This document shows positions 5,160 to 64,000 of a DNA stretch of 64,000 nucleotides, piece by piece (position 1 is the first letter of the stretch; the number at the start of each line of letters is the position of its first letter). The notes beneath the pieces were generated by a model that was given only the letters and a program-made list of their open reading frames with translations, was not told the origin of the DNA and did not search any database. Source of the DNA: Dickeya poaceiphila (GTDB lineage: Bacteria; Pseudomonadota; Gammaproteobacteria; Enterobacterales; Enterobacteriaceae); assembly GCF_007858975.2 (NCBI RefSeq), contig NZ_CP042220.2:1364001-1428000 (forward strand), given 5' to 3'. A program made the translations under genes and the position numbers.

Positions 5160-5189
5160 CTTTTCCGTGCTAATGGCGGTATGGAAAAG
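5160..5189 (+). promoter_or_regulatory. Leader hairpin, probable NasR (ANTAR) target
   Basis: CTTTTCC at 5160-5166 pairs perfectly with GGAAAAG at 5183-5189, with inner pairing possible between CCG at 5165-5167 and CGG. It sits between the sigma-54 start and the terminator, the position of the NasR-binding hairpins in the Klebsiella nasF leader. The exact loop contacts needed by ANTAR proteins are not proven here. Confidence 0.55.
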
Positions 5190-5197
5190 CGCTGGGC

Positions 5198-5253
5198 AAA
5201 GGCGTCCATAAGCGTGCGATTCTCGCATGGCTTATGGACGCCTTTTTGTTTTT
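5198..5253 (+). terminator. Leader intrinsic terminator (attenuator) before nasF
   Basis: GGCGTCCATAAGC (5201-5213) pairs perfectly with GCTTATGGACGCC (5230-5242), extended by three A:T pairs, and is followed by CCTTTTTGTTTTT. It lies in the leader 35 bases before the first structural gene, so it must be read through for expression. It is the expected target of NasR-mediated antitermination. Confidence 0.9.
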
Positions 5254-5287
5254 GCCGCCGGAATGGCGGGTTGCCGAGGTGTCGTTG

Positions 5288-6579: not shown

Positions 6580-7509
6580 ATGAAAACGCAAGCCCAGATT
6601 CTTTCTATCGTGCCGGATGCTGAGCCGGAAAACGCGAGCGCTGCCGATGCTGTTGTTATCACGCTGCCTGAAACGGCAGCCGTGCCGCCGCCTGATGAAC
6701 CGATGGTGGCGATGCCGCGACCCGTCTGGCGGCAGCGTCTGAGTTACTGGCTGTCGCGGGTGCTGCCGGGTGGTATCGGCATGGTTTTGCTGCTGGCAAT
6801 CTGGCAGATAGCGGCGTTGAGCAGCAAAGGTTTCCCGACGCCGTGGCAGACCTGGCAGGCGGCGCAGACCATTTTTGCCGACCCGTTTTACGTGGCCGGC
6901 CCTAACGATCAGGGTATTGGCTGGAACGTGCTGGCATCGCTCAAGCGTGTCGGCATCGGTTTCGGACTGGCGGCGCTGGTGGGTATTCCCGCCGGTTTCC
7001 TGATTGGTCGTTTCCGGTTTATCGCGGCGATGTTCAATCCGCTTATTTCGCTGTTGCGTCCGGTCAGCCCACTGGCGTGGCTGCCCATCGGCCTGCTGCT
7101 GTTTCAGCGCGCCGAGCCGGCATCCAGCTGGACCATTTTCATCTGCTCCATCTGGCCGATGATCCTCAACACCGCCGAAGGGGTGCGCCAGATTCCGCAG
7201 GATTACCTCAATGTGGCGCGGGTGCTGAAGCTGTCCGAATTCACCATCATGCGCAAAATCCTGCTGCCTGCGGTGCTGCCGAGCGTGCTGACTGGGGTTC
7301 GGCTGTCTATCGGCATCGCCTGGCTGGTGATAGTGGCGGCGGAAATGCTGACCGGCGGTATCGGCATCGGCTTTTGGATCTGGAACGAGTGGAACAACCT
7401 CAATGTACCCAACATCATCATCGCTATTTTGGTGATTGGCGTGGTCGGGTTGTTACTTGAGCAAGGGCTGATGTTGCTGGCCAGACGTTTCAGCTATGAA
7501 ACCCGGTAA
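6580..7509 (+). CDS. nasE: Nitrate ABC transporter permease
   Basis: A 309-residue inner-membrane permease of the NrtB/NasE family. A cytoplasmic N-terminal stretch of about 60 residues precedes six membrane segments. The EAA-like coupling loop is visible around residues 200-225, beginning with LNTAEGVRQIPQDYLNVARV, which contacts the ATPase. The family imports nitrate or nitrite together with a binding protein and ATPase, which flank it here. Ribosome site CGGAGAG at 6568-6574, 5 bases before the ATG; it starts 12 bases after the binding-protein stop, so it belongs to the same operon. The frame is intact although the gene before it is broken, so polar effects on translation are possible. Confidence 0.9.
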   Translation: MKTQAQILSIVPDAEPENASAADAVVITLPETAAVPPPDEPMVAMPRPVWRQRLSYWLSRVLPGGIGMVLLLAIWQIAALSSKGFPTPWQTWQAAQTIFADPFYVAGPNDQGIGWNVLASLKRVGIGFGLAALVGIPAGFLIGRFRFIAAMFNPLISLLRPVSPLAWLPIGLLLFQRAEPASSWTIFICSIWPMILNTAEGVRQIPQDYLNVARVLKLSEFTIMRKILLPAVLPSVLTGVRLSIGIAWLVIVAAEMLTGGIGIGFWIWNEWNNLNVPNIIIAILVIGVVGLLLEQGLMLLARRFSYETR

Positions 7510-7519
7510 GGAGAAATCG

Positions 7520-8314
7520 ATGCGCAATCAACCAATTATCCGTATTCAGCAGGTTAGCCAGCAGTTTTCCACCGCCAGCGGTTCGTTTGTGGCGCTCAAT
7601 AACGTGAGTTTCGATATTCATACCGGGGAAACCCTGAGCCTGATTGGGCACTCCGGCTGCGGCAAATCAACGCTGCTCAATCTGATTGCCGGGCTGACGC
7701 TGCCAACCCGCGGCGGCTTGCTGTGTGACAACCGTGAAATCGACGGACCGGGGCCGGAGCGGGCGGTGGTATTCCAGAACCATTCGCTGCTGCCGTGGTT
7801 GACCACGTACGACAACGTCGCACTGGCGGTGAAACAGGTGTTCCGCGGCCAGATGAGCAAGGCCGAAATGCATGAGTGGATTGTCCATAATCTGGAACTG
7901 GTGCACATGAGTCATGCGCTGAACAAACGCCCCAACGAGATTTCCGGCGGCATGAAACAGCGGGTGGGCATTGCTCGCGCGCTGGCGATGAAACCCAAGG
8001 TGTTGCTGATGGATGAGCCGTTCGGCGCGCTGGACGCGTTAACCCGTGCCCATTTGCAGGATGCGGTGATGGAAATTCAGCAGCGTCTGAACACCACTAT
8101 CGTGCTGATCACCCATGACGTGGATGAAGCGGTGCTGCTTTCCGACCGGGTGCTGATGATGACCAACGGCCCGGCTGCCACGGTGGGGGAAATCATGGCG
8201 GTGGCGCTGGAACGTCCGCGCGCTCGTGTGGCGCTGGCGGATGACCCGCGTTACCACCACTACCGCCAGCAGGTGCTGCATTTCCTGTATGAGAAGCAGC
8301 CGCACGCGGCCTGA
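7520..8314 (+). CDS. nasD: Nitrate ABC transporter ATP-binding protein
   Basis: A 264-residue ABC ATPase of the NrtD/NasD/SsuB group. Walker A is GHSGCGKSTLLN, the signature is ISGGMKQRVGIARA, Walker B is VLLMDEPFGALD, and the switch histidine is in LITHDVDEA. The ABC core is followed by a short C-terminal tail of about 50 residues with no NrtC-like binding-protein domain. I chose the ATG at 7520 (TAAGGAGA ribosome site at 7507-7514, spacing 5); the frame opens at 7496 inside nasE. It powers import through the preceding permease. All key residues are intact. Confidence 0.9.
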   Translation: MRNQPIIRIQQVSQQFSTASGSFVALNNVSFDIHTGETLSLIGHSGCGKSTLLNLIAGLTLPTRGGLLCDNREIDGPGPERAVVFQNHSLLPWLTTYDNVALAVKQVFRGQMSKAEMHEWIVHNLELVHMSHALNKRPNEISGGMKQRVGIARALAMKPKVLLMDEPFGALDALTRAHLQDAVMEIQQRLNTTIVLITHDVDEAVLLSDRVLMMTNGPAATVGEIMAVALERPRARVALADDPRYHHYRQQVLHFLYEKQPHAA

Positions 8315-12490: not shown

Positions 12491-15135
12491 ACGGCTGTCG
12501 CACCACCTGTCCTTATTGTGGCGTAGGCTGCGGGGTGATTGCCACTGTGCAGCCGGACGGGAGGGTGACCATTGACGGTGATCGCCAGCACCCGGCCAAT
12601 CGGGGGCGGTTGTGCGTCAAAGGCGCGGCGCTCGGCGACACACTGAGTCTACAAGGGCGGCTGTTGTGGCCGCTGGTTGACGGGCAGCGCGTCAGTTGGG
12701 AGCAGGCGCTGGACCGGGTTGCGCAGTCGCTCGGCGATACCATTGCGCAGCACGGTCCACAGGCGGTGGCGTTTTACGGTTCAGGGCAACTGCTGACCGA
12801 AGATTATTACGTCGCCAACAAGCTGATGAAAGGCTTTATCGGCAGCGCCAACATGGACACCAATTCCCGGCTGTGCATGGCCTCGGCAGTCATTGGCTAC
12901 AAGCGGGCGCTGGGGGCCGATGCGGTGCCGGGTAACTACGAGGACATCGAACAGGCGGATCTGGTGGTGTTGGTCGGCTCCAATACTGCCTGGGCGCACC
13001 CGGTGGTGTATCAACGGTTGATGCAGGCGAAACAACAGCGTCCACATATGAGAGTTGTGGTGGTGGACCCGCGCCATACCGCCACCTGCGATGCGGCGGA
13101 CTTACACCTGCCGCTGGCACCGGGTAGCGATGCCGGGTTGTTCAACGGACTGCTGCGCTGGCTGACGCAGCAGAACGCACCGTCGCCCGATGGGCTTTGC
13201 GGTGTGGAAGCGGCGTTGGCAGCCGCCGATGACTGGACGGTGGATCAGGTGGCGGCGTTCTGCCAGTTGGAGCCAGAGGACGTCGCCTGTTTCTATCGGT
13301 GGTTCAGCGAGAGCGATAAGGTAGTCACGCTCTATTCGCAAGGCATCAACCAGTCTGCTTCCGGCAGCGACAAATGCAACGCGATTATCAATGTACATCT
13401 GTTCAGCGGTCGTATTGGCCGGGCAGGGTGCGGACCGTTTTCGATTACCGGTCAGCCGAATGCGATGGGGGGCCGTGAAGTGGGCGGGCTGGCGAACCAA
13501 CTGGCGGCGCACATGGGGTTCAGCCCACAGGAGGTGGCACGGGTCGGTCGCTTCTGGGGCAGTGATCGGGTGGCCTCGGCTCCAGGGCTGATGGCGGTGG
13601 ATCTGTTCCGTGCGATTGAAGCCGGGCAGGTTAAAGCGGTGTGGATTATGGGCACCAACCCGGTGGTATCAATGCCGGAAGCAGACCGGGTGCGGCAGGC
13701 GTTGTTACGCTGCCCACTGGTGATTGTCTCTGATGTGATGCGACATACCGATACCACCGAATGCGCCGATATCCTGCTGCCGGCATTGGCGTGGGGAGAA
13801 AAGGACGGCACGGTGACTAATTCCGAACGGCGTATTTCCCGTCAACGTGCGTTTTTGCCAGCACCGGGCGAGGCGAAGGCCGACTGGTGGATGTTGTCGC
13901 AGGTCGCCACGCGTATGGGGTTTGGCGAGGTGTTTGATTACTGCCACCCGGCGCAAATTTTTCGTGAACATGCCGCGTTATCCGGATTTGAGAATCAGGG
14001 GCAGCGTGCCTTCAACATCAGCGCGCTGGCGACGCTCAGTGATGAGCAATGGCAACAACTTGTCCCAGTGCAGTGGCCGGTGACCACGCAGGCCGATGGC
14101 GGTACCGCACGGTTATATACCGATGGCCGTTGCTGGCATCCGGACGGTAAGGCGCGGTTACTGGCAATCATCCCGCAATTGCCGGTCAACCCACCGTCCC
14201 CGGCGTATCCACTGGTGCTCAACACCGGGCGGGTGCGTGACCAGTGGCATACTATGACCCGCACCGGCAAGGCGGCGCGCCTGATGCAGCATCTGTCGGA
14301 ACCCTATTGCGACCTGCATCCGCAGGATGCACTACATGCCGGTGTGCACGATGGCGAACTGGTTCGCATCAGTGCGGAATCAGGCTGGATGCTGGTGCGG
14401 GCGCAAGTCCAGCGCGGCCAGCAGCGTGGCAGTATTTTTGTTCCCATGCACTGGAACCGGCAATTCAGCGCACAGGCGCGTGTCGATAGTCTGGTGGCAG
14501 CGGTGACCGACCCTTACTCCGGCCAGCCGGAAAGTAAACAGGCGCGGGTGCGTATCCAGCGCTGGCCCGCCGTCTGGTTCGGCGAGCTGTTTGTGCGCGG
14601 TGACGTGGCAGCACCAGACAGCGGCTACTGGAGTCGGATTACGGCTGACGGCGTATCGCATTACGTGATTGCCGACGAGCGCACGCCAGAACACTGGCTC
14701 GACTGGCTGATCCGGCAATATGATCTGCGCGGCGTTGAATTTCAGCAGGCTCAGGGGGGCGACCGGCTGTTTCATGCGATTGGCTGGCGAGATTCCCAGA
14801 TCGCTGTGGCGCTCTATGTGGGTGTGCATCGTCCGCAACTGGCGCGTGAGGCGGTGCTGGCGGCGTTTGCCTCGCCACCGCAGCAGATATCGGATCGACT
14901 GGCGCTGCTGGCCGGTTGTGCGCCGCAGGGCGACGTGCCGCAAGGCGCAACCATTTGTAGCTGCTTTGCGGTCGGCGAGCAACGCATTATCGACGCTATC
15001 CGTCAGGGTTGCCACAGCGTGGCGCAACTGGGTGAACAGCTACAATGCGGGACTAACTGTGGTTCCTGCGTACCGGAACTGAAGGCGTTGCTGCAACAGT
15101 ATGCGACGCCAGACACATTACGCCGGGCGGGCTGA
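12487..15135 (+). CDS. nasA: Assimilatory nitrate reductase catalytic subunit
   Basis: An 882-residue molybdopterin enzyme that reduces nitrate to nitrite in the cytoplasm. The N-terminal CPYCGVGCGV with a later LCVKG supplies the [4Fe-4S] cluster ligands. Mo-bis-MGD binding blocks follow (YGSGQLLTEDYYVANKL, GSNTAWAHPV, MGTNPVVSMPEA, NTGRVRDQWHTMTRTG). The C-terminal about 60 residues add a BFD-like [2Fe-2S] domain (ICSCFAVGE, CGTNCGSC), as in Klebsiella NasA. The ATG at 12487 overlaps the nasB stop (ATGA), and the next gene starts 27 bases after the stop. Electrons should come from the NasC part of the preceding fusion. Confidence 0.93.
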   Translation: MNGCRTTCPYCGVGCGVIATVQPDGRVTIDGDRQHPANRGRLCVKGAALGDTLSLQGRLLWPLVDGQRVSWEQALDRVAQSLGDTIAQHGPQAVAFYGSGQLLTEDYYVANKLMKGFIGSANMDTNSRLCMASAVIGYKRALGADAVPGNYEDIEQADLVVLVGSNTAWAHPVVYQRLMQAKQQRPHMRVVVVDPRHTATCDAADLHLPLAPGSDAGLFNGLLRWLTQQNAPSPDGLCGVEAALAAADDWTVDQVAAFCQLEPEDVACFYRWFSESDKVVTLYSQGINQSASGSDKCNAIINVHLFSGRIGRAGCGPFSITGQPNAMGGREVGGLANQLAAHMGFSPQEVARVGRFWGSDRVASAPGLMAVDLFRAIEAGQVKAVWIMGTNPVVSMPEADRVRQALLRCPLVIVSDVMRHTDTTECADILLPALAWGEKDGTVTNSERRISRQRAFLPAPGEAKADWWMLSQVATRMGFGEVFDYCHPAQIFREHAALSGFENQGQRAFNISALATLSDEQWQQLVPVQWPVTTQADGGTARLYTDGRCWHPDGKARLLAIIPQLPVNPPSPAYPLVLNTGRVRDQWHTMTRTGKAARLMQHLSEPYCDLHPQDALHAGVHDGELVRISAESGWMLVRAQVQRGQQRGSIFVPMHWNRQFSAQARVDSLVAAVTDPYSGQPESKQARVRIQRWPAVWFGELFVRGDVAAPDSGYWSRITADGVSHYVIADERTPEHWLDWLIRQYDLRGVEFQQAQGGDRLFHAIGWRDSQIAVALYVGVHRPQLAREAVLAAFASPPQQISDRLALLAGCAPQGDVPQGATICSCFAVGEQRIIDAIRQGCHSVAQLGEQLQCGTNCGSCVPELKALLQQYATPDTLRRAG

Positions 15136-16901: not shown

Positions 16902-17134
16902 CGTTATTGCACCCGTACATCGAAACCGGGGAAATATTGCTTCGCCAGTTTCTCGACGGTGCCGTCGTCTTTCACGTGTTTGATAGCCTTGTCCAGTTCG
17001 GCTTTCAATGCTTCATCGCCTTTGCGCAGGCCAAAGCCGATGCCGCTGCCCAGAATTGAGGTGTCTTCCACCGGACCGCCGATAAAGGCGAAACCTTTGC
17101 CTTCCGGCTTATCCAGGAAACCGGACTGGCCTGC
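16902..17134. repeat. Left copy of a 233-bp direct repeat flanking the island
   Basis: Pairs with 22970-23202 (offset 6,068). The two copies are near-identical with scattered mostly silent changes, which suggests paralogous neighbouring genes rather than a fresh duplication. Confidence 0.85.
16904..17134 (-). pseudogene. Truncated 3' end of an amino-acid binding protein gene
   Basis: Reading leftwards, this encodes about the last 77 residues of a periplasmic Lys/Arg/Orn-type binding protein (AGQSGFLDKPEGKGFAFIGG to the C-terminal YFPGFDVRVQ). It matches the complete gene at 22972-23748 with only a handful of base differences over 233 bases. The 5' two thirds, including the signal peptide, are missing; similarity stops abruptly at 17134 where unrelated sequence begins. 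It therefore cannot make a working protein. It marks the left edge of the AT-rich island. Confidence 0.88.
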
Positions 17135-17630
17135 TACTGCCAATGTGCGGCAGCATAGCCAGAAGCTGTCAGCAGGCGCGGGTTTGCTGGATCTTTTTAC
17201 ACATGATTCGGAGTTCTTCATAAGGGATTGCTGTTATGTCTGGTGCGCTTAGTCTGGTTGGTGATTGAACCGAGCATAACAATTCTTACCGAGTTCCCTT
17301 CAGTTATCTGCTATTAGGTGAGATTATGTAGATATTTCATTTTAAAGAAATTCTATCAGTGAATTAATAAAAATTAATATTTATTAATGGGGGTTGTTAA
17401 AAATGATGATTTCATATATCTGAGTAAATAATCAGACATTCACATGATAAAAGTAAGAAAAAACAATTAGATATGGTGTTTTTTTTATTCTTGGTGAAAC
17501 AGCTAATAATAACAAAATAAATCTAATTCTTCTGTTTTTAAGGAAATTTTGTTTGATCAGTAAATGTTGTATGTGTAATTATCTTTTTCCCCATCCTGGC
17601 GAGGATGGCCATACATAATTAGGGATGACT
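17135..17630. other. Island left junction and AT-rich leader
   Basis: Up to about 17250 the base composition is still mixed and the sequence is unidentified; beyond that it is strongly AT-rich with A and T runs. No ORF is convincing. A hairpin CCATCCT-GGCG-AGGATGG (17591-17608) lies 22 bases before the first island gene and has no T tract after it, so it is more likely a leader structure than a terminator. A promoter for the six-gene unit must lie here, but several -10-like boxes make a choice unsafe. Confidence 0.5.
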
Positions 17631-18489
17631 ATGAATGTAAATGTTGCAAAAACTCTGCAATCAGAAGAGCAGGTTTTCACCACTATTAGTGGAGATTCTG
17701 TTGATGAGTTAGTGAAAAATGGTTCTCACTACCGGTGAGAGAATTTCATCCAGAGCTGGAAATGCACTACAAGCTTATGGCGTAAATTATGTTCTTAAGG
17801 ATCCAGGAAATCGCTTGCATAACATTAGAGCTGGTGCCATAAGGTATTTATCTCGAGAGTATTTGGCTTATTTTAGTGGTAGTCTGAGGGCTAAGGATGG
17901 TCTGGCAAAAGCATCTAAATTCTGGATGACGCTTGTTGACGAAAATGGGAATGTCAATTCAAATTATGGATATTATGTGTTTTATGAGCCGGTTGAAGGT
18001 TATGGCAACCAATACAATTGGGTGAAAAATGTACTTATAAAAAATAAAGATTCCCGCCGCGCTATTATAAACATCAATCAAAATTATCATAAATCAGACA
18101 CTAAGGATTTTCCTTGTACTATCGGCATGCAGTTCTATATCAAGAATGACACATTACATTGTGAAACCATTTCACGAAGCACGGATGTAATTACGGGTCT
18201 TCCCTATGATATGGGCTTTTTCTCATTTATCCATGAGTTGATATGGAAAGACCTGAGAGAGAGTGGGATGGATAAACTCAAGCTAGGCATAACAGTAATG
18301 AAAACTACATTCACACAAATCTATGATAAGACTTTAAATAAAGCGACAGAAGTGGCGGAATGTAGTGAAATAAAACCGTTTTCTGAAAAAATGCCTCAGA
18401 TAGAATCAGCAGAAGAAACGTTGTCGGATATATTATCTGGTGCCGCTAATACCAATGTTATGAAATGGATTTATAAACATGCAGAATAA
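17631..18489 (+). pseudogene. Thymidylate synthase-fold (d)CMP hydroxymethylase-like protein, frameshifted at an A5 run
   Basis: Most of the protein is in the frame from 17719 to 18489. It has the thymidylate synthase landmarks: DSRRAIINI (phosphate arginines), the catalytic cysteine in FPCTIGMQFYI, and SRSTDVITGLPYD. The family's Asn of GLPFN is Asp here (GLPYD). In known enzymes Asp at this site shifts preference from dUMP to (d)CMP, as in T4 dCMP hydroxymethylase. The start with a good ribosome site (AGGGA at 17621) is ATG 17631 in another frame; both frames join at the A5 run 17714-17718. With four As the start would read ELVKMVLTTG...SRAG, matching the family N-terminus. Repaired length is 285 residues. 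The His-x-Tyr of the later GDTHLYSNH motif is not conserved. Overlaps the next gene by 11 bases. Confidence 0.75.
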
Positions 18490-19050
18490 ACACGTGACAC
18501 TTCTATTGGCTTCTGATAATGAAGCAAAAATTTCATCAGTAAGGAATACATGTTCTTTTATTTTTGAGAATTTCACACTTAAACATAAAAGTGTTGAATC
18601 AGGCGTCAGTGAAACACCGCAAAGCGATGATGAGGCAATTAGTGGTTGTCAAACTAGAATTAAAAATATTGAATTAGTACAGGATAGTTATGTTGATTAT
18701 ATTATTGCTCTTGAAGGGTTGACGGAAAAAACATCATTTGGAAATTTTGTATATGGATGGGCAGTTATTAAAGATGTTGTCACATCGGAACTCTATTATG
18801 GTTGCAGTGGGAAAGTAATGCTTCCTGCTATTGTAGCAGAAAAAATCGATAAAAAATCAAGCTTTCAGATATCATTCTGGGGTTGAATCCAGAGATATCT
18901 CAATCAGATATAGATAAAGTAGGAACTAATGGTGTGCTAACAGGAGGTTTATATACAAGAGTCGATGAATTCGAGACAGCACTAAAATGTGCATTTGGCT
19001 CTTTAGTGGCTCATAAGGATTTTTCATATGGTAAAAATAGTAATTTTTGA
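18479..19050 (+). pseudogene. DUF84 / YjjX-like non-canonical NTP phosphatase, frameshifted at an A6 run
   Basis: The first frame (18479-18886) shows the NTPase_1 start LLLASDNEAKISSVR, the VESGVSETPQSDDEA segment and the DYIIALEG motif, all typical of inosine/xanthosine triphosphatases such as E. coli YjjX. The C-terminal part (SDIILGLNPE, then GTNGVLTGGLYTR) is in a second frame ending at 19050. The switch falls at the A6 run 18851-18856; a seventh A would restore one frame of 190 residues. The family removes damaged or non-standard nucleoside triphosphates. In this setting it could clean up or process a modified pyrimidine or purine nucleotide, which is inference. It overlaps the preceding gene by 11 bases and the next by 23. 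Confidence 0.75.
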
Positions 19051-19704
19051 TTTGGACGATACATTGGTCAGCCATAAAGCAGGGGCTGACTCTGCTTTAA
19101 AAGCAGTAACAGACTGGATCGTCAAGTATCAATATGCTAAGGCGAATAGCGATTTCAGTGCGTTTCGAGAATTTTTTTATAAGAAAAATCAATATCTATG
19201 GGAGGATTTTGTATTAGGAAGCATTGAGATGAAAATGATTTTTGATAAAAGGTTTGAATATATATTTGACTGGTTTGATATTAAATTACTAAAGCATAAG
19301 AAGTTAATTGAAGGTATTTACTGGGATGATTATTTCAGTAATTGTTCTTTAACAAGAGATTGGGTTCCTTTATTAAGTGAGTTAAGTGAAAAATTGCCAT
19401 TGATAATCTGTAGTAATGGTATGGATAAGGTTCAGATCAAAAAATTAGAGAATAAAAATATAAAAAAATATTTTAAAAGTCTCTATTTTGGTAAGTCTTA
19501 CCCGGAGTGTAAGCCAAATAAGGTTTTTTTTATAAGATATTAGATGAATATGCCCTGAGACCTAAAGATGCTCTTATGATAGGAGACAGTATTTCAAATG
19601 ATATTCGTCCCTGTCAAGAGCTAGGGATGCAGACATTACATTATTCTGAAAAAATTTCATTCGATAAGTTCAAAAAGGATATGTTGGGGTTTATTAATGG
19701 ATGA
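19028..19704 (+). pseudogene. YjjG-like HAD phosphatase, frameshifted at a T8 run
   Basis: A haloacid-dehalogenase-type phosphatase. Motif I is FDLDDTL near the N-terminus, motif II is ICSNG, the lysine of motif III lies in CKPNK, and motif IV GDSISND is in a second frame. The first frame stops at 19543; the switch lies in the T8 run 19524-19531, where a ninth T would restore KVFFYKILDEYALRPKDALM and a 225-residue protein ending at 19704. The cap region (KKNQYLWEDFVLGSIEMK) resembles E. coli YjjG, a pyrimidine 5'-nucleotidase. Without the second frame the acidic residues of motif IV are lost, so the short product should be inactive. The next gene starts 8 bases before the repaired stop. Confidence 0.75.
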
Positions 19705-20986
19705 TAAATTAATTTTTAAAGAGATAAAATATTTAAATTCAGAAGATATGTGTTTTGAAGTAGGGGATATTCGGATAAGAAACGACAGGATTGTAGAAGT
19801 TGGTCCTAATCTGGATGTTCATGATGAGGAAGTAGTCTTGCTAAACGGCGGTCATATTATACTGCCCGGATTGATAAATGCACATCTTCATCCTAGCAAG
19901 GAAGTTTATGGTAGCCTATTAGACTCATCCCCCATTGATAAGGTATTAGACACCGTACATAAAAATAATGAGCTTGAAGATCCAGAAGGTCAGTATATAT
20001 CATCAATAAAATCAATCGGATGTGCTTTAAGAAAAGGAGTTACTTCATTCGGGATTTTTACTAGCCGAATCGAAAGTGATTACCGGGCTGTCACTGAAGT
20101 GGGAGTTCGCTGTGTTATCAATTTTTGTCAAAGTAACTATTGGGCTGGAAGTGGTAAAAGCCCGAAAAATAAATCAATAGATACTATCTCAAGTGAGTAT
20201 TTTTTAGCAGAGAAACTTTACCAAAACGATTTAGTGAATATCACACCAGCAACTGCTTCAGAATTATCTGCTGACGACTTATTATTAGTCATGCTTCATG
20301 ACATTGCGATAAAGCGTAGCAGGAGGTTTACCTTACACATAAATGAAGGAAGTCACCAGGTAAACGCACATATCAATATGTATTCTAAAAGTGGTATTGA
20401 GCGGTTACATGAGTTGGGGGTGCTTGATCATAACACTACGCTTATTCATGCTAGTTATCTGAGTGACAGAGAGATAGAAATAATAAAAGAATCAAAATGT
20501 AGTCTTGTGCATTGTCCGGTCAGTAACAGTTTCGTAGGGGCCGGAACCATGCCCGCGAAAAAGTTTTCATCAACAAACCACATTGGCCTTGGTACGGATG
20601 CAGCGATGGTTAATCCAGTCAATGATCTGACGTTTGATGCGCTTTTTTCATTATATCATCATGGTGATAGTGAATTTATCAATAAAATTGATGCCAAATC
20701 AGTTCTTCATATGATTACTTTTGGCGGTGCAGAGGCCCTTGGATTGAAAGATACAGGAAAAATTCAATCAGGATTCAAAGCTGACTTGATAATTTATAAA
20801 GAAAATGAAATGGATAATGAATATATTAATACACCAGTTTCAATACTCAAAATGATCAATAAAGAAAATCCCTGTCATGTATTAATTGATGGTGATTTTG
20901 TTATTAAAGAAAATTGCTTTAAAAATATAAAAATTATCGATAGTGTAAAAGAGTATTCCTCAATAAGAAATAGGGTTAAGCTATGA
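19697..20986 (+). CDS. Amidohydrolase-family deaminase (ATZ/TRZ-like)
   Basis: A 429-residue metal-dependent hydrolase of the amidohydrolase superfamily. The beta-sandwich halves at both ends surround a barrel with the metal ligands HLH in INAHLHP, His in TLHINEG, His in LIHASYLS and Asp in GLGTDAA. Close families deaminate guanine, cytosine, S-adenosylhomocysteine or triazines, so a nucleobase or nucleoside amine is the likely target, but the substrate pocket cannot be read. The frame is intact. ATG 19697 overlaps the repaired HAD stop by 8 bases, and the stop overlaps the next start (ATGA at 20983-20986). Confidence 0.82.
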   Translation: MDDKLIFKEIKYLNSEDMCFEVGDIRIRNDRIVEVGPNLDVHDEEVVLLNGGHIILPGLINAHLHPSKEVYGSLLDSSPIDKVLDTVHKNNELEDPEGQYISSIKSIGCALRKGVTSFGIFTSRIESDYRAVTEVGVRCVINFCQSNYWAGSGKSPKNKSIDTISSEYFLAEKLYQNDLVNITPATASELSADDLLLVMLHDIAIKRSRRFTLHINEGSHQVNAHINMYSKSGIERLHELGVLDHNTTLIHASYLSDREIEIIKESKCSLVHCPVSNSFVGAGTMPAKKFSSTNHIGLGTDAAMVNPVNDLTFDALFSLYHHGDSEFINKIDAKSVLHMITFGGAEALGLKDTGKIQSGFKADLIIYKENEMDNEYINTPVSILKMINKENPCHVLIDGDFVIKENCFKNIKIIDSVKEYSSIRNRVKL

Positions 20987-21600
20987 AGAGAGTAGCATTT
21001 ATGTTCTCTGGCCGTGGAAGTTTGCTGTCCACTGTCAGGCAGGCTATTTTAGATTCCAAAGTCACGGCTGAATTAAGTCTTGTTATTACAAATAATGCTG
21101 ATTTCTCAGCTACAGGGAATGCTGCGTTTGATGGTGTTTCTATTGCTAAAATAGACCATCGTGACTTTAATGATCGTAGTGGTTTCGAAAAGGCGATTAC
21201 AGAAAAAATTAATAATTCCGGTATAGATCTAATAATATTAGGAGGTTTTAGAAGAATTTTTTCTCCTAAATTTGTGAAAGATTTTGGTAGTAAAACGATG
21301 AATGCCCACCCATCTTTGCTACCAGCTTTCCCTGGTGATAAGGCTCAACTTAAGGCGTTGCAGGGGGGACTGCGCATTACAGGTGCAACACTTCACTTTA
21401 TTAATGAAGAAGTTGATGCTGGTCCTATAATTGATCAGGAGGCTGTGAGAATTTTAAATGGGACTACTGAGTCTGAGCTAAAAGAGCTAATTATTTTTGC
21501 CGAGAGAAAGATGATCTATCGTGCAGTTTGTGCTTTTCTGGAGTCCAGGTTATCTATTCACGATAACAAAGTTGTCTATGAAGGATATTCTGATGTATAG
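20983..21600 (+). CDS. PurN-like 10-formyltetrahydrofolate-dependent formyltransferase
   Basis: A 205-residue single-domain formyltransferase resembling glycinamide ribonucleotide transformylase (PurN). It starts with the Rossmann-type VAFMFSGRGSLL, has the catalytic Asn and His in MNAHPSLLPAFPG and the catalytic Asp in EVDAGPIIDQEAV. PurN proper belongs to purine synthesis beside purM, but here the gene lies inside an AT-rich, tightly overlapping operon with nucleotide-modifying enzymes, so a specialised amine acceptor is more likely. The frame is intact. It overlaps both neighbours (4 bases upstream, 8 downstream). Confidence 0.82.
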   Translation: MKRVAFMFSGRGSLLSTVRQAILDSKVTAELSLVITNNADFSATGNAAFDGVSIAKIDHRDFNDRSGFEKAITEKINNSGIDLIILGGFRRIFSPKFVKDFGSKTMNAHPSLLPAFPGDKAQLKALQGGLRITGATLHFINEEVDAGPIIDQEAVRILNGTTESELKELIIFAERKMIYRAVCAFLESRLSIHDNKVVYEGYSDV

Positions 21601-22798
21601 AATAAAGAACGATATCGTTGCCGCTAGTTGTGTTGCCAGCATTCTATTTCTGGCTATTGTCAGTTTAGGGCTTTCGCTGGCAGTATTGCCTCTGTTTGTA
21701 AGTAAATATCTTGAGTATTCACCATTCTATATCGGATTAGTTGTTGCAGCTGAGTCAATTGCTACTCTGGCATCCAGAGCTTATGCAGGTAGATACTCAG
21801 ATCGAAATGGGCCCAAAAAAGGCATGGTATTTGGGCTGAGTTTAACTATTATTGCGGGGTTGATGGTTTTTATTGTTTTCTATCTCGATAACCCGGGTGT
21901 ATTTTCGTATATTATTATAATTCTTTCTCGACTTATTATGGGTGGGGGGGAAAGTCTAATCTTTACCTGTAGCGGTACATGGCCGATAGGCCTTGTCGGC
22001 AGAGAGCATGCAGGAAAAATAATGTCTTGGGTCGGTATTGCCATGTTCCTTGGACTGGCTATTGGGAATTATGCTGGTATATGGTCATATTACAATATAG
22101 GTATCATGCTTTCTGCATTTTTTATGACAATCCTTCCTGTATTGGGATTTATAATTGTAATGATTGTCAGGCCTGTTATTTTTCATCCCGAAAGCAATCA
22201 GCCGACTCTTTTTTTTGCTGTTAAGAGAATTTGGAAGGCGGGATCTGGTTTTTCTCTGGCAAATATTGGCTATGCCTCAGTAACTACTTTTTTAGTTCTT
22301 TATTTTATTGAAAGTGGATGGTCTGTATATAGTGCATTTGCCCTATCGTTGTTCGGTATTGGATATGTGCTATCTCGTCTTACATTAGGCTGGAAAGCCG
22401 ATTCTTGCGGGTTAAAGATGACACTGTTTTCCCTTGCTATCGAGGCATCTGGATTGCTTTTGATTGCCATATCATCTCACGCTTATATCGCAATGGCAGG
22501 GTCTTTCCTTACCGGATTTGGTTTATCGATGGTATATCCTTTGCTCGCTTTGCCAGCCTTAAAAAGTATGCCAGAAGAGAATATTGGGCTTGCGTTGAGT
22601 ACCTATGAGTCATGCTTTGATATCGGCATATTACTGGCTGGATTGATTGGTGGCACAATCGTTTCAATCTTTGGTTATTCTGGGATTTATTTTTTTTCAT
22701 TTTTATGTTGTATACTGGCATCGTTTTCCACTGTAATGGCATACCGGCAATTAAAACATACTGGAAGGATGGTAAACCATCAAGCAGCTCTCGAGTAA
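21593..22798 (+). CDS. MFS transporter, probable exporter of the island product
   Basis: A 401-residue major facilitator protein with about twelve hydrophobic segments. The loop between helices 2 and 3 reads SRAYAGRYSDRNGPKKGM, the family G-x-x-x-D-R-x-G-R/K signature. I chose the ATG at 21593 with AAGGA at 21581-21585 (spacing 7), overlapping the formyltransferase by 8 bases; the open frame starts further upstream inside that gene. It resembles drug or sugar efflux members. Placed last in a biosynthesis-like operon, it most likely exports the product or gives self-protection (inference). Confidence 0.8.
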   Translation: MYRIKNDIVAASCVASILFLAIVSLGLSLAVLPLFVSKYLEYSPFYIGLVVAAESIATLASRAYAGRYSDRNGPKKGMVFGLSLTIIAGLMVFIVFYLDNPGVFSYIIIILSRLIMGGGESLIFTCSGTWPIGLVGREHAGKIMSWVGIAMFLGLAIGNYAGIWSYYNIGIMLSAFFMTILPVLGFIIVMIVRPVIFHPESNQPTLFFAVKRIWKAGSGFSLANIGYASVTTFLVLYFIESGWSVYSAFALSLFGIGYVLSRLTLGWKADSCGLKMTLFSLAIEASGLLLIAISSHAYIAMAGSFLTGFGLSMVYPLLALPALKSMPEENIGLALSTYESCFDIGILLAGLIGGTIVSIFGYSGIYFFSFLCCILASFSTVMAYRQLKHTGRMVNHQAALE

Positions 22799-22893
22799 TA
22801 TATTGCCAGTTGTGAAAAACTGGCTGGTCTGATAAATAATCAGAGCTTGCTGGCGTAGGAATGTGTAAGGGTTTTTTATCGCTATCATTAATA

Positions 22894-22930
22894 CCAAGAC
22901 CCGTATCTCTGGAGCGGGTCTTGGTTGTTT
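22894..22930 (+). terminator. Intrinsic terminator after the island operon
   Basis: CCAAGACCCG (22894-22903) pairs with CGGGTCTTGG (22915-22924), followed by TTGTTT. It ends plus-strand transcription from the MFS gene and also sits just past the minus-strand stop of the binding-protein gene. Confidence 0.75.
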
Positions 22931-22969
22931 GATGTTGTACTGTTCAGAACATGCAGTAGTGATAACAGT

Positions 22970-23202
22970 CGTTATTGCACCCGTACATCGAAACCGGGGA
23001 AATATTGTTTCGCCAGTTTCTCGACGGTGCCGTCGTCTTTCACGTGTTTGATAGCCTTGTCCAGTTCGGCTTTCAAGGCTTCATCACCTTTACGCAGGCC
23101 AAAACCGATGCCGCTGCCCAGAATCGAGCTGTCTTCCACCGGACCGCCGATAAAGGCGAAACCTTTGCCTTCCGGCTTATCCAGGAAACCGGACTGGCCT
23201 GC
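22970..23202. repeat. Right copy of the 233-bp direct repeat flanking the island
   Basis: The 3' third of the complete binding-protein gene, matching 16902-17134. Together the copies bracket the 5.8-kb AT-rich segment. Confidence 0.85.
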
Positions 23203-23748
23203 CGCCGCCATCACCAGCGTACCGTCCAGACGGCCTGCTGCCAGGTCGTCGTATGCCAGATTCTGATCTTTGTAGCTTGTCACTGTCACGCCTTTCGGCT
23301 CCCAGTGCGCCTTGGCATACACTTCCTGAATCGAACCCTGCAACACACCGATATTCTTGCCTTTCAGCGCTTCTGCCGTCGGTGCCAGACCAGTATCCGG
23401 TTTGCCAACTAATTGGGTAGGAATACGGTAGATAGGCTGAGTGAAATCAATCGCTTCTTTGCGCTTTTCCGTGATGTTCATCGCGGAGTTGATGGCATCG
23501 AACTTTTTGGCTTGCAGTGCCGGGATCAGGGCATCAAAGGAGGTCTCGACCCAGTTGCATTTGAAATTGCCGGCTTTACAGATGGCGTTGCCCAGATCGA
23601 TATCGAATCCTTCCAGTTGGCCTTTGGCGTTTTTGCTTTCAAACGGCGGGTATTCCGCTTCCAGACCAAAACGCAGTTCGGTTTGCGCCAGCGCAGCAGT
23701 AGAGGACAGTAACCCTAGTGACAACATCAGTATGCTTAATTTTTTCAT
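22972..23748 (-). CDS. Periplasmic basic amino-acid binding protein (ArgT/HisJ/FliY type)
   Basis: A 258-residue solute-binding protein of ABC family 3. A signal peptide (MKKLSILMLSLGLLSSTAALA) precedes the mature TELRFGLEAEYPPFESKN. The ligand-binding elements include LEGFDIDLGNAICK and the segment after FDALIPALQAKKFDAINSAMNIT. Relatives bind lysine/arginine/ornithine or histidine. I chose the Met at 23748, since it gives a clean signal peptide; the frame is open for 18 more codons. It lies 114 bases after the aminotransferase gene in the same direction, so both could be one unit under the ArgR box at 25091. No permease or ATPase is adjacent. A truncated paralogue lies at 16904. Confidence 0.88.
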   Translation of the reverse strand: MKKLSILMLSLGLLSSTAALAQTELRFGLEAEYPPFESKNAKGQLEGFDIDLGNAICKAGNFKCNWVETSFDALIPALQAKKFDAINSAMNITEKRKEAIDFTQPIYRIPTQLVGKPDTGLAPTAEALKGKNIGVLQGSIQEVYAKAHWEPKGVTVTSYKDQNLAYDDLAAGRLDGTLVMAAAGQSGFLDKPEGKGFAFIGGPVEDSSILGSGIGFGLRKGDEALKAELDKAIKHVKDDGTVEKLAKQYFPGFDVRVQ

Positions 23749-23862
23749 AGCGGGAACGATCTCCGGTAAATCAATGAGTAGTGTGCAAATCGTCATCATC
23801 AAACAGCATTACCATCAGGTACAGATCAGGTGCAACCACCTTCATCGGCAGGTGATGGTCGG

Positions 23863-27642: not shown

Positions 27643-29241
27643 ATGAAGATTTCGACACGATTATGGAGTTTCACCGGGATGCTGTCGCTGGGCATTCTGA
27701 TTATGGGTGCTATTGGCATGTTTACCGCAGAAAAGGCCAATCAGTCGCTTAAGACGGTGTATGAAGACCGTACGGTGGCGCTGGCCCAACTGGAAAAAAT
27801 GGAATGGCTGCTGCAGCGTAACCGGATATTGATCATGGATATGCTGTTGTTGCCAAATGCGTCAAATAAACAACAACGTATTGAAGAGTTAAACCAGAAT
27901 ACCACCCGGATTGATCAGGTCTGGAACGAATACCGTTCGACTTATCTGACGCCGGAGGAAACCCGTCTGGCAGATCAGTTTGCCGAATACTTGCAGCGCT
28001 ATCAACGTGAAGGGATACAACCGACCGATACAGCGATCCGAAGTGGGCAAATGGAACAGGCAATACGCCTTTATGACGAGAAAGTCAGTCCACAGGAAAA
28101 GCAAGCGCACGCCCAACTCACCCAACTGGTGATGTTACAGGTTGACGTTGCTAAAGACGAATACACCAGTTCGGTACAGCGTTATCAGTGGTTGAAAGCG
28201 CTGGCGATCATAGCCGTGTTGTCGGGAATTATCGGTGCAGTGGTATTTGGCTGGATGATGGTGCGCGGTATTGTCCGTAGTCTGGCGCAAGCGCAGGCAG
28301 CGGCTGAAGCCGTGGCGAATGGTGATTTGACCTATCCTATCAATGCCAGTGGGCGTGATGAGATCACTACCGTGCTGAATACGTTGTCGCATATGCAGGA
28401 TAGTCTGGGGCGCATTGTAATGCAGGTGCGACATGGCTCTGAGTCGGTGAAAGTCGCCAGTGGTGAAATCGCACTCGGCAACCATGACTTATCCGCACGC
28501 ACCGAATCTCAGGCCAGTGCGCTGGAACAAACGGCGGCGTCCATGGAACAACTCTCTGCAACGGTGAAGCAAAACGCGGATAACGCCAGACAAGCTAACC
28601 AGTTGGCTCAGACCGCCAGTCAGGTGGCCGAGCAGGGAGGGAGCGTGGTGACTCAGGTGGTGGACACCATGCGGGAAATCAATGACAGTGCCCAGCGTAT
28701 CGCCGATATCATTGGTGTTATCGACGGCATCGCTTTTCAAACCAATATTCTGGCATTGAACGCTGCCGTGGAAGCCGCGCGTGCCGGTGAACAAGGGCGT
28801 GGATTCTCGGTAGTCGCCGGTGAGGTACGGGCGCTGGCGCAGCGTAGTGCGGAGTCGGCCCGTGAAATCAAAGCGCTGATTTCCACCAGCGTGGAGCGGA
28901 TCGAAAGCGGCAGTACACTGGCGGATAACGCGGGCCACACCATGCTGGAAGTGGTTAATAGCATCCGTCGTGTGACCGATATCATGGGGGAGATCAGCTC
29001 TGCCAGCCACGAACAGAGTAGTGGGGTATCGCAGGTGGGTGAAGCCGTGGTGAGTATGGAGCGTACTACCCAACAAAACGCGGCGCTGGTCGAAGAGATG
29101 GCGGCGGCGGCAAGCAGTTTGAGTAGTCAGGCGGAAGAGCTGGTGCAAGCGGTCGGGGTATTCCAACTATCGGCACGGGCGCCCGGCATACAGCCGAGCA
29201 CCCGTGTTGCCGAACACAACCTGTTGCCGGATTATCAGTAA
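27643..29241 (+). CDS. Methyl-accepting chemotaxis protein
   Basis: A 532-residue transmembrane chemoreceptor. The N-terminal membrane helix ([18 protein letters not shown]) is followed by a periplasmic four-helix bundle of about 150 residues, a second helix ([19 protein letters not shown]), a HAMP domain, and the cytoplasmic signalling hairpin whose tip reads [20 protein letters not shown]. Length fits Tar/Tsr-type receptors. The C-terminus lacks the NWETF-type pentapeptide that tethers CheR/CheB in some receptors. I chose ATG 27643 with a GGGGTGG site upstream; the frame opens at 27481. The ligand cannot be deduced. Its 3' end overlaps the convergent ggt gene by 7 bases. Confidence 0.9.
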
Positions 29242-30998
29242 CCGATGGCGGCGCCAGCCGGACGACGCGAATCGTTGGCGCCGTACAGATACCCTTCGCG
29301 CACCTTGCCGGACACTGCCGAGTCGTTGCCGGAGTTGGCGGGGATAACGCCTTCCTCGCCGGCTAAGCCAACCATGATAAGCTCGGTGGCGCCCCAGGGC
29401 GTCTGCTCCACCATCTTATAACCGCGTTCTTTGAGCAGATTAAGGGTGTCGGCAGACAGGCCGCGCTGCTCATAGTACACCTCGTCTGGCAACCATTGAT
29501 GGTGGATGCGTGGCGCGTCCACTGCTTCTTGCGGCAACATACTGAAATCAAGAATATTCAGCGCGCTTTGCAGCGTAATGCTGATGATGCGTGCCCCTCC
29601 CGGCGAACCGATGACCAGAAAGATCTTGCCGTCTTTAGTCACCAGTGACGGGCTCATGGATGAGAGCGGACGTTTGCCCGGCGCAATTGAGTTACGTTCC
29701 CCTTGAACCAGACCGTACAAGTTCTTTTCGCCGACTTTGACGGTGAAATCATCCATCTCGTCGTTCAGAAAGAAACCGGTGCCGGGAGCTATCACTACCG
29801 CGCCGAAACGGCCATTCACCGTATAGGTGGTAGAAACGGCGTTACCCTGGTTATCGACAATTGAGTAGTGGGTCGTTTCCGGTTTTTCATGCGGTTCCAT
29901 GCCGGGTTGGACCTGTTCGGACGGTGTGGCGTTGGTGTTGTCGATTTTCTTGCGGATCTCGGCGGCATAGTCTTTGCTCAGCAACCGGTCGGTGGGGTTT
30001 TTAACAAATGCCGGGTCGCCCAGATAGGTGTTGCGATCCATGTAAGCATGGCGCATGGCTTCAGTCATTACATGTATGGCCTGCGCTGAGTTGAATCCCA
30101 TGCTTTTCAGGTCGTAACCTTCGAGAATGTTCAGCGTTTCACACAGGGTAATTCCGCCGGAACTGGGCGGAGGCGACGAGATGAACTGATAACCACGATA
30201 GCTGCAGGTAATGGGTTTGGTTTCAGTTACCCGATAATTGGCGAAGTCCGCTACAGTCAGAATACCGCCGCCTTTTTTAGATGCAGTCTCGATTATCTGG
30301 GGAATGTTGCCGTGGTAGAACGCATCCGGGCCTTTATCCGATATAGCCTGTAACGTATGGGCCAGATCGGTCTGCACCAGCCGGTCGCCCGGTTGTAACG
30401 CCGAGCCGTCCGGGCGCAGGAAGATGCGTGCTGATTCCGGGTCTTGCTTAAATCGTTTGATGGTCGTGTCGAGGATGTCGGTGTCGCCGCGGGTTAACAC
30501 AAAGCCTTCTCGCGCCAGCTTGATGGCCGGGGCCATCACCTGGGCGCGGGCCAGCTTGCCGTATTTTTCGCGCGCGGTTTCCAGCCCCAGTACTGTGCCG
30601 GGAACGCCTGCAGCCAGATAGCCATACAAGCTGGCGTCTTTTTTGACTTTGCCTTCAGCATCCAGATACATCGTAGCGGAAGCCGCGGCGGGCGCAGTTT
30701 CCCGAAAGTTGATGAAGGTATCCTGACCATTTGCCAGATGAATGGTCATAAACCCGCCACCACCGATGTTGCCGCAGCACGGATTGACCACTGCCTGTGC
30801 GTAACCGACTGCTACTGCGGCATCAATCGCATTGCCCCCCATTTTTAGAATATCGACACCGACCTGTGAGGCCAGATGTTGTGAGGTGACCACCATACCG
30901 TGTTTGGCTTCCACTGCTGGTATGGAAACTGCGTGGACTACACCGCTGACCAATAATGCAGTCAGACTTAACGGCAGCAGCCATTTTCCCGATCTCAT
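29235..30998 (-). CDS. ggt: Gamma-glutamyltransferase
   Basis: A 587-residue periplasmic N-terminal nucleophile hydrolase that cleaves or transfers the gamma-glutamyl group of glutathione. A signal peptide ([18 protein letters not shown]) begins the protein. The autocatalytic cleavage site and catalytic Thr lie in [20 protein letters not shown], and [11 protein letters not shown] is the oxyanion region. The start at 30998 has GGGGGAG about 5 bases upstream; the frame opens 20 codons earlier. Proposenzyme length is typical (about 580). It is convergent with the chemoreceptor gene. Confidence 0.92.
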
Positions 30999-31216
30999 AG
31001 AACTCCCCCTTGATTGGTTTATTGGTGTTGTGGTGGACTGCATGGGTTGTGTTTGCATTAATGCATTCTGCGTGCCATTTTTATTGTGAACACTATTTTA
31101 GTGTTGAGTTTTTATCCTGAACGCAATGGCATGATCAGTGTAGCTGCGGCGGCATGTCATGCCCGGAAAATCATCAGGAATGTGGGTGCCCCCTCGCTTT
31201 TTAGCGCTGATCATGT

Positions 31217-32464
31217 CTAGCCGTGGGCGTTATGTCGTGCGTAGGCGTCACGCACCACGGTGACGATTTGCTCGCTCACCGCTTGTTCAGGAAGGCACTG
31301 CTTCCTGATGCGCCGACAATTTTCCGCAATATTGGGGTCATCCAGAAGCTGATGCAATTTATCCTCTAGTTTGTCGATGTCTCTGTCATTCAGCCATGTA
31401 CCACACTTCATGGCGGTAACCCGACGCGCATTATCAAATTGATCAAACGCGCTGGGAATGACCAATTGGGGAATACCGGCTGCGAAAGATTGCGCCATCG
31501 TACCAATACCGCCGTGATGGATAATAGCTGCGCACTGATGCAGGTATTGACTCAAATTGATATGGCGCTCGATACGAATCCCGCTGTCGCCCGCCAGATC
31601 ATGTTGTGGTTGACCGACTATCAAACACTGATAGCCGCGTTGACGGGTTTTTTTCACCAGTGAAACGACCAGATCCCGTTTGCTACTTAACGCCCAACTG
31701 GGCATAAAAATCACCGTAGGCGCACGAGCGATAAACTGAGCCAAATCGGCATCTTGTTGGTTATCCAATAAATTAAAAAGCGGAAAACTCACCTGACGGA
31801 TGTGAGCCGGCCAGTCTGGCAATGGTGAGGCAAACCATTCCGGAAACAGGCACAGCAACGTTGCATCTGTGCAATGTGTCCATGACGTCAGCACGCGGTC
31901 GATACGCGGTAATTGCAACTGGCTCCTGAATTTATTGATAAAAGGCGCGAGTGTGCGATCAATCAGATATTTTTCGGCGAGATACAAAAACAGGCGACGC
32001 AGGCGTATCGGTAATCGACGCCCCCATACCAGTTGCTGATGATAGGGAGGATCATAACTAGAGATAAACGTTGATGGTGTGACTCGTACTGGGATAACAC
32101 AACATCCCTTGGTTTCGCTGAACATTTTTGCAGAAAAAGACCACAACGAAGTAAGAATGATTGACGAGCGATCTACCCACGGCTCCAGCGCTTCATAAGC
32201 CGGCTGTTGCTGCGCATTCATGTAATTGACCATTTCATGGAAGGCGGATTTTTGATGCCACAAACGTTGTGAATTAACAGCGCGTAAATAGTCCTCGCTT
32301 TTGCCGACAGGAATAAAATGAAGTCCTCTTTCTCTTGCCGTTTGTTCAAAATAAGGGTTGGTACAAAGATAAACATCCAGTCCGGCATTTCTCAATGCCT
32401 CACCTATTATGATGAATGGATAAACATCTCCGGCAGAGCCAAGCGTGGATAAAAATATCCTCAT
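31217..32464 (-). CDS. RhlB-like GT1 glycosyltransferase
   Basis: A 415-residue glycosyltransferase with the overall pattern of RhlB, the rhamnosyltransferase of rhamnolipid synthesis. It starts FLSTLGSAGDVYPFIIIGEA; has RLWHQKSAF, VTPSTF, LCLFPEWFASPLPDWP and FPLFNLLD; and ends with the sugar-nucleotide site HHGGIGTMAQSFAAGIPQ and FDQFDNARR. A strong AGGAGGG ribosome site precedes ATG 32464. RhlB adds a sugar to a hydroxyacyl lipid; no rhlA partner is in the window, so the acceptor may be another lipid or a lipopeptide. It points the same way as the peptide exporter, 813 bases upstream, but the gap and a repeat element make a common operon unlikely. Confidence 0.8.
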   Translation of the reverse strand: MRIFLSTLGSAGDVYPFIIIGEALRNAGLDVYLCTNPYFEQTARERGLHFIPVGKSEDYLRAVNSQRLWHQKSAFHEMVNYMNAQQQPAYEALEPWVDRSSIILTSLWSFSAKMFSETKGCCVIPVRVTPSTFISSYDPPYHQQLVWGRRLPIRLRRLFLYLAEKYLIDRTLAPFINKFRSQLQLPRIDRVLTSWTHCTDATLLCLFPEWFASPLPDWPAHIRQVSFPLFNLLDNQQDADLAQFIARAPTVIFMPSWALSSKRDLVVSLVKKTRQRGYQCLIVGQPQHDLAGDSGIRIERHINLSQYLHQCAAIIHHGGIGTMAQSFAAGIPQLVIPSAFDQFDNARRVTAMKCGTWLNDRDIDKLEDKLHQLLDDPNIAENCRRIRKQCLPEQAVSEQIVTVVRDAYARHNAHG

Positions 32465-34941: not shown

Positions 34942-34974
34942 CCGTTTTTCCTGTTTTTCCTTGTTATTCAGTAT

Positions 34975-35001
34975 AAAACCGCCGGTTGTAACAACCGGCG
35001 G
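34975..35001 (-). terminator. Intrinsic terminator between synthetase and exporter
   Basis: CCGCCGGTTG (34979-34988) and CAACCGGCGG (34992-35001) form a perfect 10-pair stem with a 3-base loop. On the minus strand it is followed by TTTTAT (complement of 34973-34978). It lies 23 bases after the synthetase stop and before the exporter ribosome site. Confidence 0.8.
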
Positions 35002-35023
35002 GGATGAACGACCGTACGATGGC

Positions 35024-64000
<28,977 letters not shown>

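Follow-up and report, generated by a model that had tools for sequence, protein, structure and literature searches.

What does a compact, AT-rich run of six metabolic genes make in Dickeya, and does the set belong together at all? The genes lie in a stretch of 64,000 nucleotides from Dickeya poaceiphila (contig NZ_CP042220.2, positions 1,364,001 to 1,428,000; hereafter, the window), where six protein families follow one another in order on the + strand at 17631-22798: a thymidylate synthase (TS)-fold enzyme (Thymidylat_synt), a nucleoside triphosphate (NTP) pyrophosphatase (NTPase_I-T/DUF84), a HAD phosphatase (HAD), an amidohydrolase (AMI; Amidohydro_1), a PurN-like formyltransferase (FMT; Formyl_trans_N) and a major facilitator superfamily (MFS) transporter (MFS_1). 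All six, located through the table of open reading frames, exceed their Pfam cut-offs, and the GC content of the island that holds them is 36.2% as against 58.8% in the remaining window, which confirms what a preliminary description of this DNA had reported of the gene order and composition. We found that the operon is conserved, mobile and under selection, and that its TS-fold member carries the residues of a deoxycytidine monophosphate (dCMP) hydroxymethylase. With a probability of roughly 0.55, the intact operon would make and export a C5-hydroxymethylated pyrimidine deoxynucleoside antimetabolite and move horizontally between genomes, the copy in the window being a damaged one. The observation made in the preliminary description is thus confirmed in part, and its interpretation is supported in part.

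Distribution and conservation of the operon

A scan of the genome collection with the TS piece of the window returned five loci, in Dickeya oryzae, Edwardsiella anguillarum, Erwinia persicina, Trabulsiella odontotermitis and Ewingella americana, and in all five the shared genes stand in identical order. Open frames for the whole set of six occur in Erwinia persicina, Ewingella americana and one further locus (L026), so that the conserved co-occurrence by which the preliminary description proposed to check its interpretation is indeed found in other genera. With the Erwinia protein as query, HAD was detected in four of the ten loci besides the window (L012, L014, L016 and L026) and not in the other six (L013, L015, L018, L019, L020 and L056), the sets that lack it including those of Edwardsiella, Trabulsiella and the E. 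coli plasmids. HAD is therefore dispensable.

The operon also travels on plasmids. TS matched 4 of 72,556 plasmid records, three from E. coli and one from Salmonella, and AMI matched the same four; when 5,426 E. coli genomes were considered, operon DNA was matched in three, always on plasmids. In pSTEC2018_553-f (5698 bp, recorded as linear) a five-gene operon at 827-5372 makes up the sole annotated genes, and Rfam gives a match at 264-363 to ColE1-type RNAI, the copy-number RNA of ColE1-type plasmids. In the Salmonella plasmid (L020) a carbamoyltransferase gene precedes TS, and the space between AMI and MFS is too short for FMT; this replacement was seen in one plasmid only, and relatives of the carbamoyltransferase occur in 193 plasmid records. 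A set that is met again across genera and on plasmids is no chance assembly. It is rare all the same: at E<=1e-25, the hits for TS numbered one among 394 genomes sampled from the order, three among 392 from the family and one among 398 from the phylum, the window genome being included each time. Two of the plasmid copies show irregular frames, the TS region of one E. coli plasmid (L056, 5069-5906) being annotated as two consecutive open frames, so that this copy may be damaged too, and the N-terminal part of the carbamoyltransferase region in L020 (10339-11904) being out of frame or missing.

A related LysR gene lies upstream, in divergent orientation, in five of the ten loci (L014, L016, L019, L026 and L056); L019 and L056 carry the same one, and the Erwinia protein shares 58-59% identity with those of the E. 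coli plasmids. The GC content of the operon was 32.6-41.2% over nine loci, lower every time than that of the rest of the locus. When the DNA upstream of the operon in nine loci was inspected and folded one locus at a time, no common element was seen, and at the Rfam gathering threshold three loci (L012, L014 and L018) gave only RNAI (L018) and a tRNA (L014), with no leader RNA.

Wider co-occurrence was examined through homologue sets comprising 298 TS (E<=1e-8; 120 listed), 67 AMI (E<=1e-50) and 63 FMT proteins (E<=1e-45), a shared contig being inferred from exactly equal size of the longest contig, with the best 80 of the 298 TS homologues used for matching. On this measure 20 of 67 AMI matched a TS homologue, and among the 63 FMT, 31 matched TS or AMI, 14 matched both and 32 neither; when sizes were shifted by 1-200 bases as a control, the corresponding numbers were a mean of 0.12 (maximum 2) for AMI and 0.2 (maximum 3) for FMT. 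All three proteins were matched in Xenorhabdus nematophila, Trabulsiella, Pseudomonas sp. GGS8, Chelonobacter oris and Lysinibacillus among others, TS and FMT in Bacillus and Pantoea stewartii among others, and AMI and FMT in Burkholderia and Vibrio sp. S11_S32 among others; in Vibrio caribbeanicus TS and AMI were matched, with no FMT of the same size among the 63. The operon context behind these matches was read directly for Trabulsiella (L015) and inferred from equal sizes for the others, so that contig sizes indicate the presence together of TS, AMI and FMT in Pseudomonas, Lysinibacillus and Chelonobacter. What recurs is a conserved operon of biosynthetic enzymes with a transporter, as in nucleoside antimetabolite clusters.

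Between Erwinia and Ewingella, the ratio of nonsynonymous to synonymous rates (dN/dS) is 0.09-0.23 over all six genes, and all six are thus under purifying selection in this pair. Between Edwardsiella and Trabulsiella, dS was saturated in four of five genes. The two Dickeya copies differ by 1-3 nonsynonymous changes per gene in the four genes compared, so that either decay there began recently or the changes are too few to judge by.

Predicted substrate of the TS-fold enzyme

The best sequence match in the PDB for the Erwinia TS homologue is T4 dCMP hydroxymethylase (E 9.3e-14, residues 75-214), which is also the top Foldseek match (E 3.7e-16) of its AlphaFold model (mean confidence, pLDDT, 90.3). 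NCBIfam thymidylate synthase models score the same protein far under their cut-offs, at best 56.5 versus 327 bits. According to the literature, hydroxymethylation is marked by an Asp three residues before the catalytic Cys together with a Ser and a Tyr two apart, the choice of cytosine is set by an Asp in place of Asn (PMC6400193), and the sugar is read by Arg and Ser for deoxyribose or by Lys and Ala for ribose, the latter as in MilA and BcmA (PMC5175136). We compared 25 proteins at these positions, one from an operon locus and 24 picked from the 120 listed among 298 homologues. The catalytic Cys and Glu are kept in 25/25; the Asp at Cys-3 with Ser-x-Tyr, the cytosine-type Asp, and Arg and Ser at the sugar-selecting positions are likewise present in every one, and the Lys and Ala of the CMP type were seen in none. 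A neighbouring second Arg is Lys in 2 of 27 family rows aligned. As controls, the dCMP hydroxymethylase of phage Cronus carries the full residue set of these homologues, and Dickeya ThyA differs at the hydroxymethylation positions (Leu and Pro) and at the cytosine position (Asn).

Because these published residues are invariant, the enzyme reads as a dCMP rather than a CMP 5-hydroxymethylase. The idea of a hydroxymethylase rather than a thymidylate synthase, which had been put forward from the operon in the window, is thereby supported, and the CMP route of MilA and BcmA that had been invoked with it is not; a CMP hydroxymethylase of that type is ruled out by the sugar code in 25/25. We are fairly confident that the TS-fold protein hydroxymethylates dCMP or a cytidylate closely related to it. 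An origin by recent copying of housekeeping genes was also ruled out, in a comparison that covered three of the six proteins, by low identity to their counterparts in the same genome: 24% between the TS piece and ThyA, 22.5% between the DUF84 piece and the YjjX-type protein, and 33% between FMT and PurN.

The family is not confined to this operon. Members occur in Patescibacteria and Saccharibacteria (P0100, P0117 and P0120), with the full signature in P0100 and P0117. Viral contigs hold nine TS-family loci, and two close relatives stand in phage-like contigs. In these metagenome contigs (L028:3814-5185 and L029:3605-4997; phage nature and NUDIX assignment by eye) a TS-family gene 50-51% identical to that of Erwinia is directly followed by a NUDIX-like gene, and no AMI, FMT or MFS gene was seen by eye among the open reading frames listed for them; the pair may be another instance of a hydroxymethylase with an NTP pyrophosphatase.

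The other five proteins

The Erwinia AMI model (pLDDT 92.5) has as its top Foldseek matches adenosine deaminase, atrazine chlorohydrolase (AtzA) and an isocytosine-specific deaminase. In an alignment of 23 sequences HxH, His, His and Asp, which we take to be residues of the metal-ligand type, are invariant, as is the Glu of HxxEG. All 11 FMT homologues in the alignment, which include P0250 from an unplaced context, retain an Asn, a His and an Asp, presumably the PurN catalytic set. All 11 lack the Asn of the PurN SGxGSN motif, which is present in Dickeya PurN and which we take to lie at the phosphate site for glycinamide ribonucleotide; its absence argues against that compound as the substrate of FMT. 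DUF84 gave structure matches, weak ones, to VC0702 and YjjX, and HAD matched YfnB in structure and TIGR02254 (YjjG_YfnB) under its cut-off (112.7 versus 159.9 bits for the Erwinia protein). The Erwinia MFS protein lies above the cut-off of NF003477, and its weaker NCBIfam matches include efflux families.

Proposed function and alternatives

One could envision a short pathway assembled from these activities. With methylene-tetrahydrofolate as donor, the TS-fold enzyme would hydroxymethylate dCMP, or a nucleotide much like it, at C5. DUF84 would convert a nucleoside triphosphate to the monophosphate, either supplying dCMP to the TS-fold enzyme, as T4 dCTPase supplies dCMP to its pathway, or, by analogy with the self-resistance protein ThmC, breaking down the toxic triphosphate inside the producing cell. 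The phosphate would be taken off by HAD or, in loci that lack it, by nucleotidases of the host; AMI, judged by its fold and metal-ligand type residues, may remove the ring amino group by hydrolysis, giving for example a product of the 5-hydroxymethyl-deoxyuridine type; FMT, or the carbamoyltransferase in the one Salmonella plasmid, would cap the molecule; and the MFS protein would export it. A neighbouring cell would take up the product, rephosphorylate it and be poisoned.

Several observations weigh against this reading. Foldseek runners-up to the T4 enzyme were close (E. coli TS, 8.4e-16; MilA, 2.4e-15), and the TM-score of the model was higher to MilA (0.73) than to the T4 enzyme (0.64), so that fold alone cannot separate a hydroxymethylase from a thymidylate synthase. 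In the sugar-binding pair the Tyr is kept and the His is replaced by Gln, both in 25/25 homologues, and the substrate sugar may therefore be unusual rather than plain deoxyribose. Given the family members in Patescibacteria and in phage-like contigs, the enzyme serves other contexts too. Erwinia FMT exceeds the NCBIfam PurN cut-off (158.4 versus 150.1 bits) and may catalyse an ordinary PurN-like reaction; PurN-type enzymes formylate amines, and the operon shows no evident amine-forming step. Three genes are interrupted in the window copy, TS and HAD in both Dickeya copies. Finally, the product, the enzyme activities and the order of the deamination, formylation and export steps, the target of formylation, toxicity and the direction of MFS transport are all things that we infer.

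Alternatively, the operon could serve uptake and salvage, MFS importing a modified nucleoside and the enzymes dephosphorylating, deaminating and recycling it. The MFS protein may work in either direction, and HAD, deaminase-type and MFS proteins are also salvage families; however, a folate-dependent hydroxymethylase together with a formyltransferase points to synthesis and not to breakdown, efflux families are among the weaker matches of MFS, and a rare cassette on small plasmids suits an antimicrobial better, all of which makes salvage improbable. We regard as equally improbable a role against phages or in DNA hypermodification, in which hydroxymethyl-dCMP would be incorporated into DNA or would poison phage replication in the cell. 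The TS enzyme does match phage dCMP hydroxymethylases, relatives of its gene adjoin a NUDIX-like gene in phage-like contigs, and the operon sits on plasmids and islands, but no nucleotide kinase or DNA glycosyltransferase is found among the six genes, and an NTP pyrophosphatase with a transporter speaks against incorporation in the host. A known anti-phage system was considered and rejected, since none of the six proteins (0/6) had a PADLOC match at E 0.001.

Biosynthesis and export of a metabolite other than an antibiotic, such as a signal, or of a vitamin antagonist of the kind of bacimethrin, which acts on thiamin, is unlikely in our view. The enzymes leave the bioactivity of the product undefined, and 5-hydroxymethylcytosine is made en route to both bacimethrin and mildiomycin (PMC4081090). 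The residues nevertheless point to dCMP rather than CMP; the operons in plasmid records carry no annotated N-glycosidase or methyltransferase, and no further gene lies between the operon genes in L013-L016.

An exported deoxynucleoside antimetabolite, the reading that we prefer, would place the operon near several known systems and apart from each. With the T4-type dCMP hydroxymethylase (gp42) the TS enzyme shares the fold, the catalytic Cys and Glu, and the hydroxymethylation, cytosine and deoxyribose (Arg and Ser) residues described above; in contrast, identity is ~24% over the fold alignment, the sugar-binding His is Gln, and the gene stands in a bacterial operon with a transporter, whereas the T4 enzyme serves the modification of DNA. 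The CMP hydroxymethylases MilA (mildiomycin) and BcmA (bacimethrin) are likewise TS-fold cytidylate hydroxymethylases of small-molecule pathways with the cytosine Asp, but they differ in the ribose-selecting positions and in the N-glycosidase, none being annotated in the plasmid-record operons. The Photorhabdus thmABC cluster for 4'-thiothymidine is, like the present operon as we read it, a small gammaproteobacterial locus for a deoxynucleoside antibiotic, and it is found as a three-gene cluster in multiple gammaproteobacteria, nearly all Enterobacterales (PMC12691670). Its NTPase, ThmC, is enough by itself to make E. coli BL21(DE3) resistant to 4'-thiothymidine; unlike the present operon, the cluster encodes a radical SAM enzyme, a nucleoside-kinase homologue and an NTPase only, without TS-fold, AMI, FMT or MFS genes, and the same source does not state whether ThmC belongs to DUF84. 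Microcin and colicin plasmids of the ColE1 type resemble pSTEC2018_553-f in being small, RNAI-bearing and given over in their annotated genes to one locus with a transporter, although their product is a peptide or protein and that of the operon a predicted nucleoside.

We found no description of this combination in the open-licence literature, judged by titles and abstracts, in keeping with the statement in the preliminary description that it was not a recognised pathway. Nucleoside antimetabolite clusters are a known kind; what appears to be new is this set of enzymes, in which a hydroxymethylase of the dCMP type belongs to a cellular operon. Deoxycytidylate hydroxymethylases are usually found in bacterial viruses, according to PMC6400193, and the operon puts a predicted one into a small metabolite operon of ordinary bacteria, E. 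coli plasmids included. Should the product prove to be an antimetabolite, a whole antibiotic with its immunity would be encoded in five or six short genes, a size that can be cloned and tried in a laboratory strain. Functions would then be at hand for two proteins that now bear other annotations, inosine/xanthosine triphosphatase in the case of DUF84 and PurN in that of the formyltransferase. More tentatively, and as something that we would not yet expect to hold, the operon may represent an undescribed, microcin-like class of antibiotics spread over several phyla, in which a phage-type deoxycytidylate hydroxymethylase feeds exported C5-hydroxymethyl deoxynucleosides with an interchangeable formyl or carbamoyl cap, with self-immunity through DUF84, on small plasmids and islands.

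The damaged copy and its island in Dickeya

In the window, three of the six frames (TS, DUF84 and HAD) are interrupted, so that the six genes of the preliminary description stand as six families and not as six intact frames (Table 1). The open part of DUF84 is 135 residues versus 180-193 in relatives, and that of HAD 171 versus 229 from ATG. Of the reported overlaps, 11 bases between TS and DUF84, 4 between AMI and FMT and 8 between FMT and MFS agree with the frame positions and the sequence, whereas those of 23 and 8 bases, read by eye, exist only when measured from the downstream frames of two interrupted genes, DUF84 and HAD. In the D. oryzae ZYY5 copy (L012) TS and HAD are interrupted too, TS by a different lesion, and DUF84 is open (190 residues). 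The copy in the window is probably no longer functional, and the pathway dead in this genome. Promoter and terminator scans were near background (26 promoters found versus 22.2 in shuffles; 7 terminators versus 3.9, standard deviation 2.2).

Table 1. Operon genes, enclosing island and flanking repeats, in window coordinates
Feature	Position	Strand	Basis and state
TS-fold gene, predicted dCMP 5-hydroxymethylase	17631..18489	+	PF00303 and residue signature; frame split near 5' end, open 17719-18489
DUF84 / YjjX-like NTP pyrophosphatase	18479..19050	+	PF01931; interrupted, open 18479-18886
YjjG/YfnB-like HAD phosphatase	19028..19704	+	Pfam; interrupted, open 19028-19543
AMI, adenosine/isocytosine deaminase-AtzA fold group	19697..20986	+	Pfam and Erwinia model; open
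PurN-like FMT	20983..21600	+	PF00551; open
MFS transporter	21593..22798	+	PF07690; open
Mobile island holding the operon, ~5.8 kb	17143..22960	+	Low GC, identity profile, presence/absence in relatives
Left direct repeat, 241 bp, partial copy of the 3' end of an ABC-type substrate-binding gene	16902..17142	-	95.9% identical to 22970-23210; gene type by eye
Right direct repeat, 3' end of the full-length substrate-binding gene (22972-23802)	22970..23210	-	Table of open reading frames and repeat comparison

The host genome is a single contig of 4.32 Mb. A congener matches positions 17600-22800 at 99% identity, the named near-identical locus being that of D. oryzae ZYY5; identity to ZYY5 is 97-100% in blocks near both ends of the island and mostly 80-98% in flanking blocks, a few of which are low and gapped. 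Two of 58 relatives carry the island, the window genome and one congener, six other matches spanning only 23-38 bases, and the neighbouring substrate-binding gene is present in all nine genomes of the genus searched (9/9). No integrase or transposase frame was seen among the open reading frames of the island. The D. oryzae counterpart of the flanking repeat is 252 bp with 96.8% identity between its copies, and across the two species the copies are 91.7-93.4% alike, less than within each genome (95.9% and 96.8%); a simple target-site duplication is one possible origin of the repeats. The Edwardsiella operon (L013) is flanked, like the Dickeya island, by a direct repeat, of 924 bp and 92% identity (7107-8016 and 13650-14564), inside which lies a gene that is presumably yajL-like.

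Elsewhere in the window, an open frame of 9658 residues (35024-64000, - strand) runs to the window edge, with nonribosomal peptide synthetase domains in the 3000-residue piece scanned, and beside it on the same strand lie an ABC transporter (33277-35049), an EryCIII-like protein (31217-32464) and a gamma-glutamyltranspeptidase (29235-31058).

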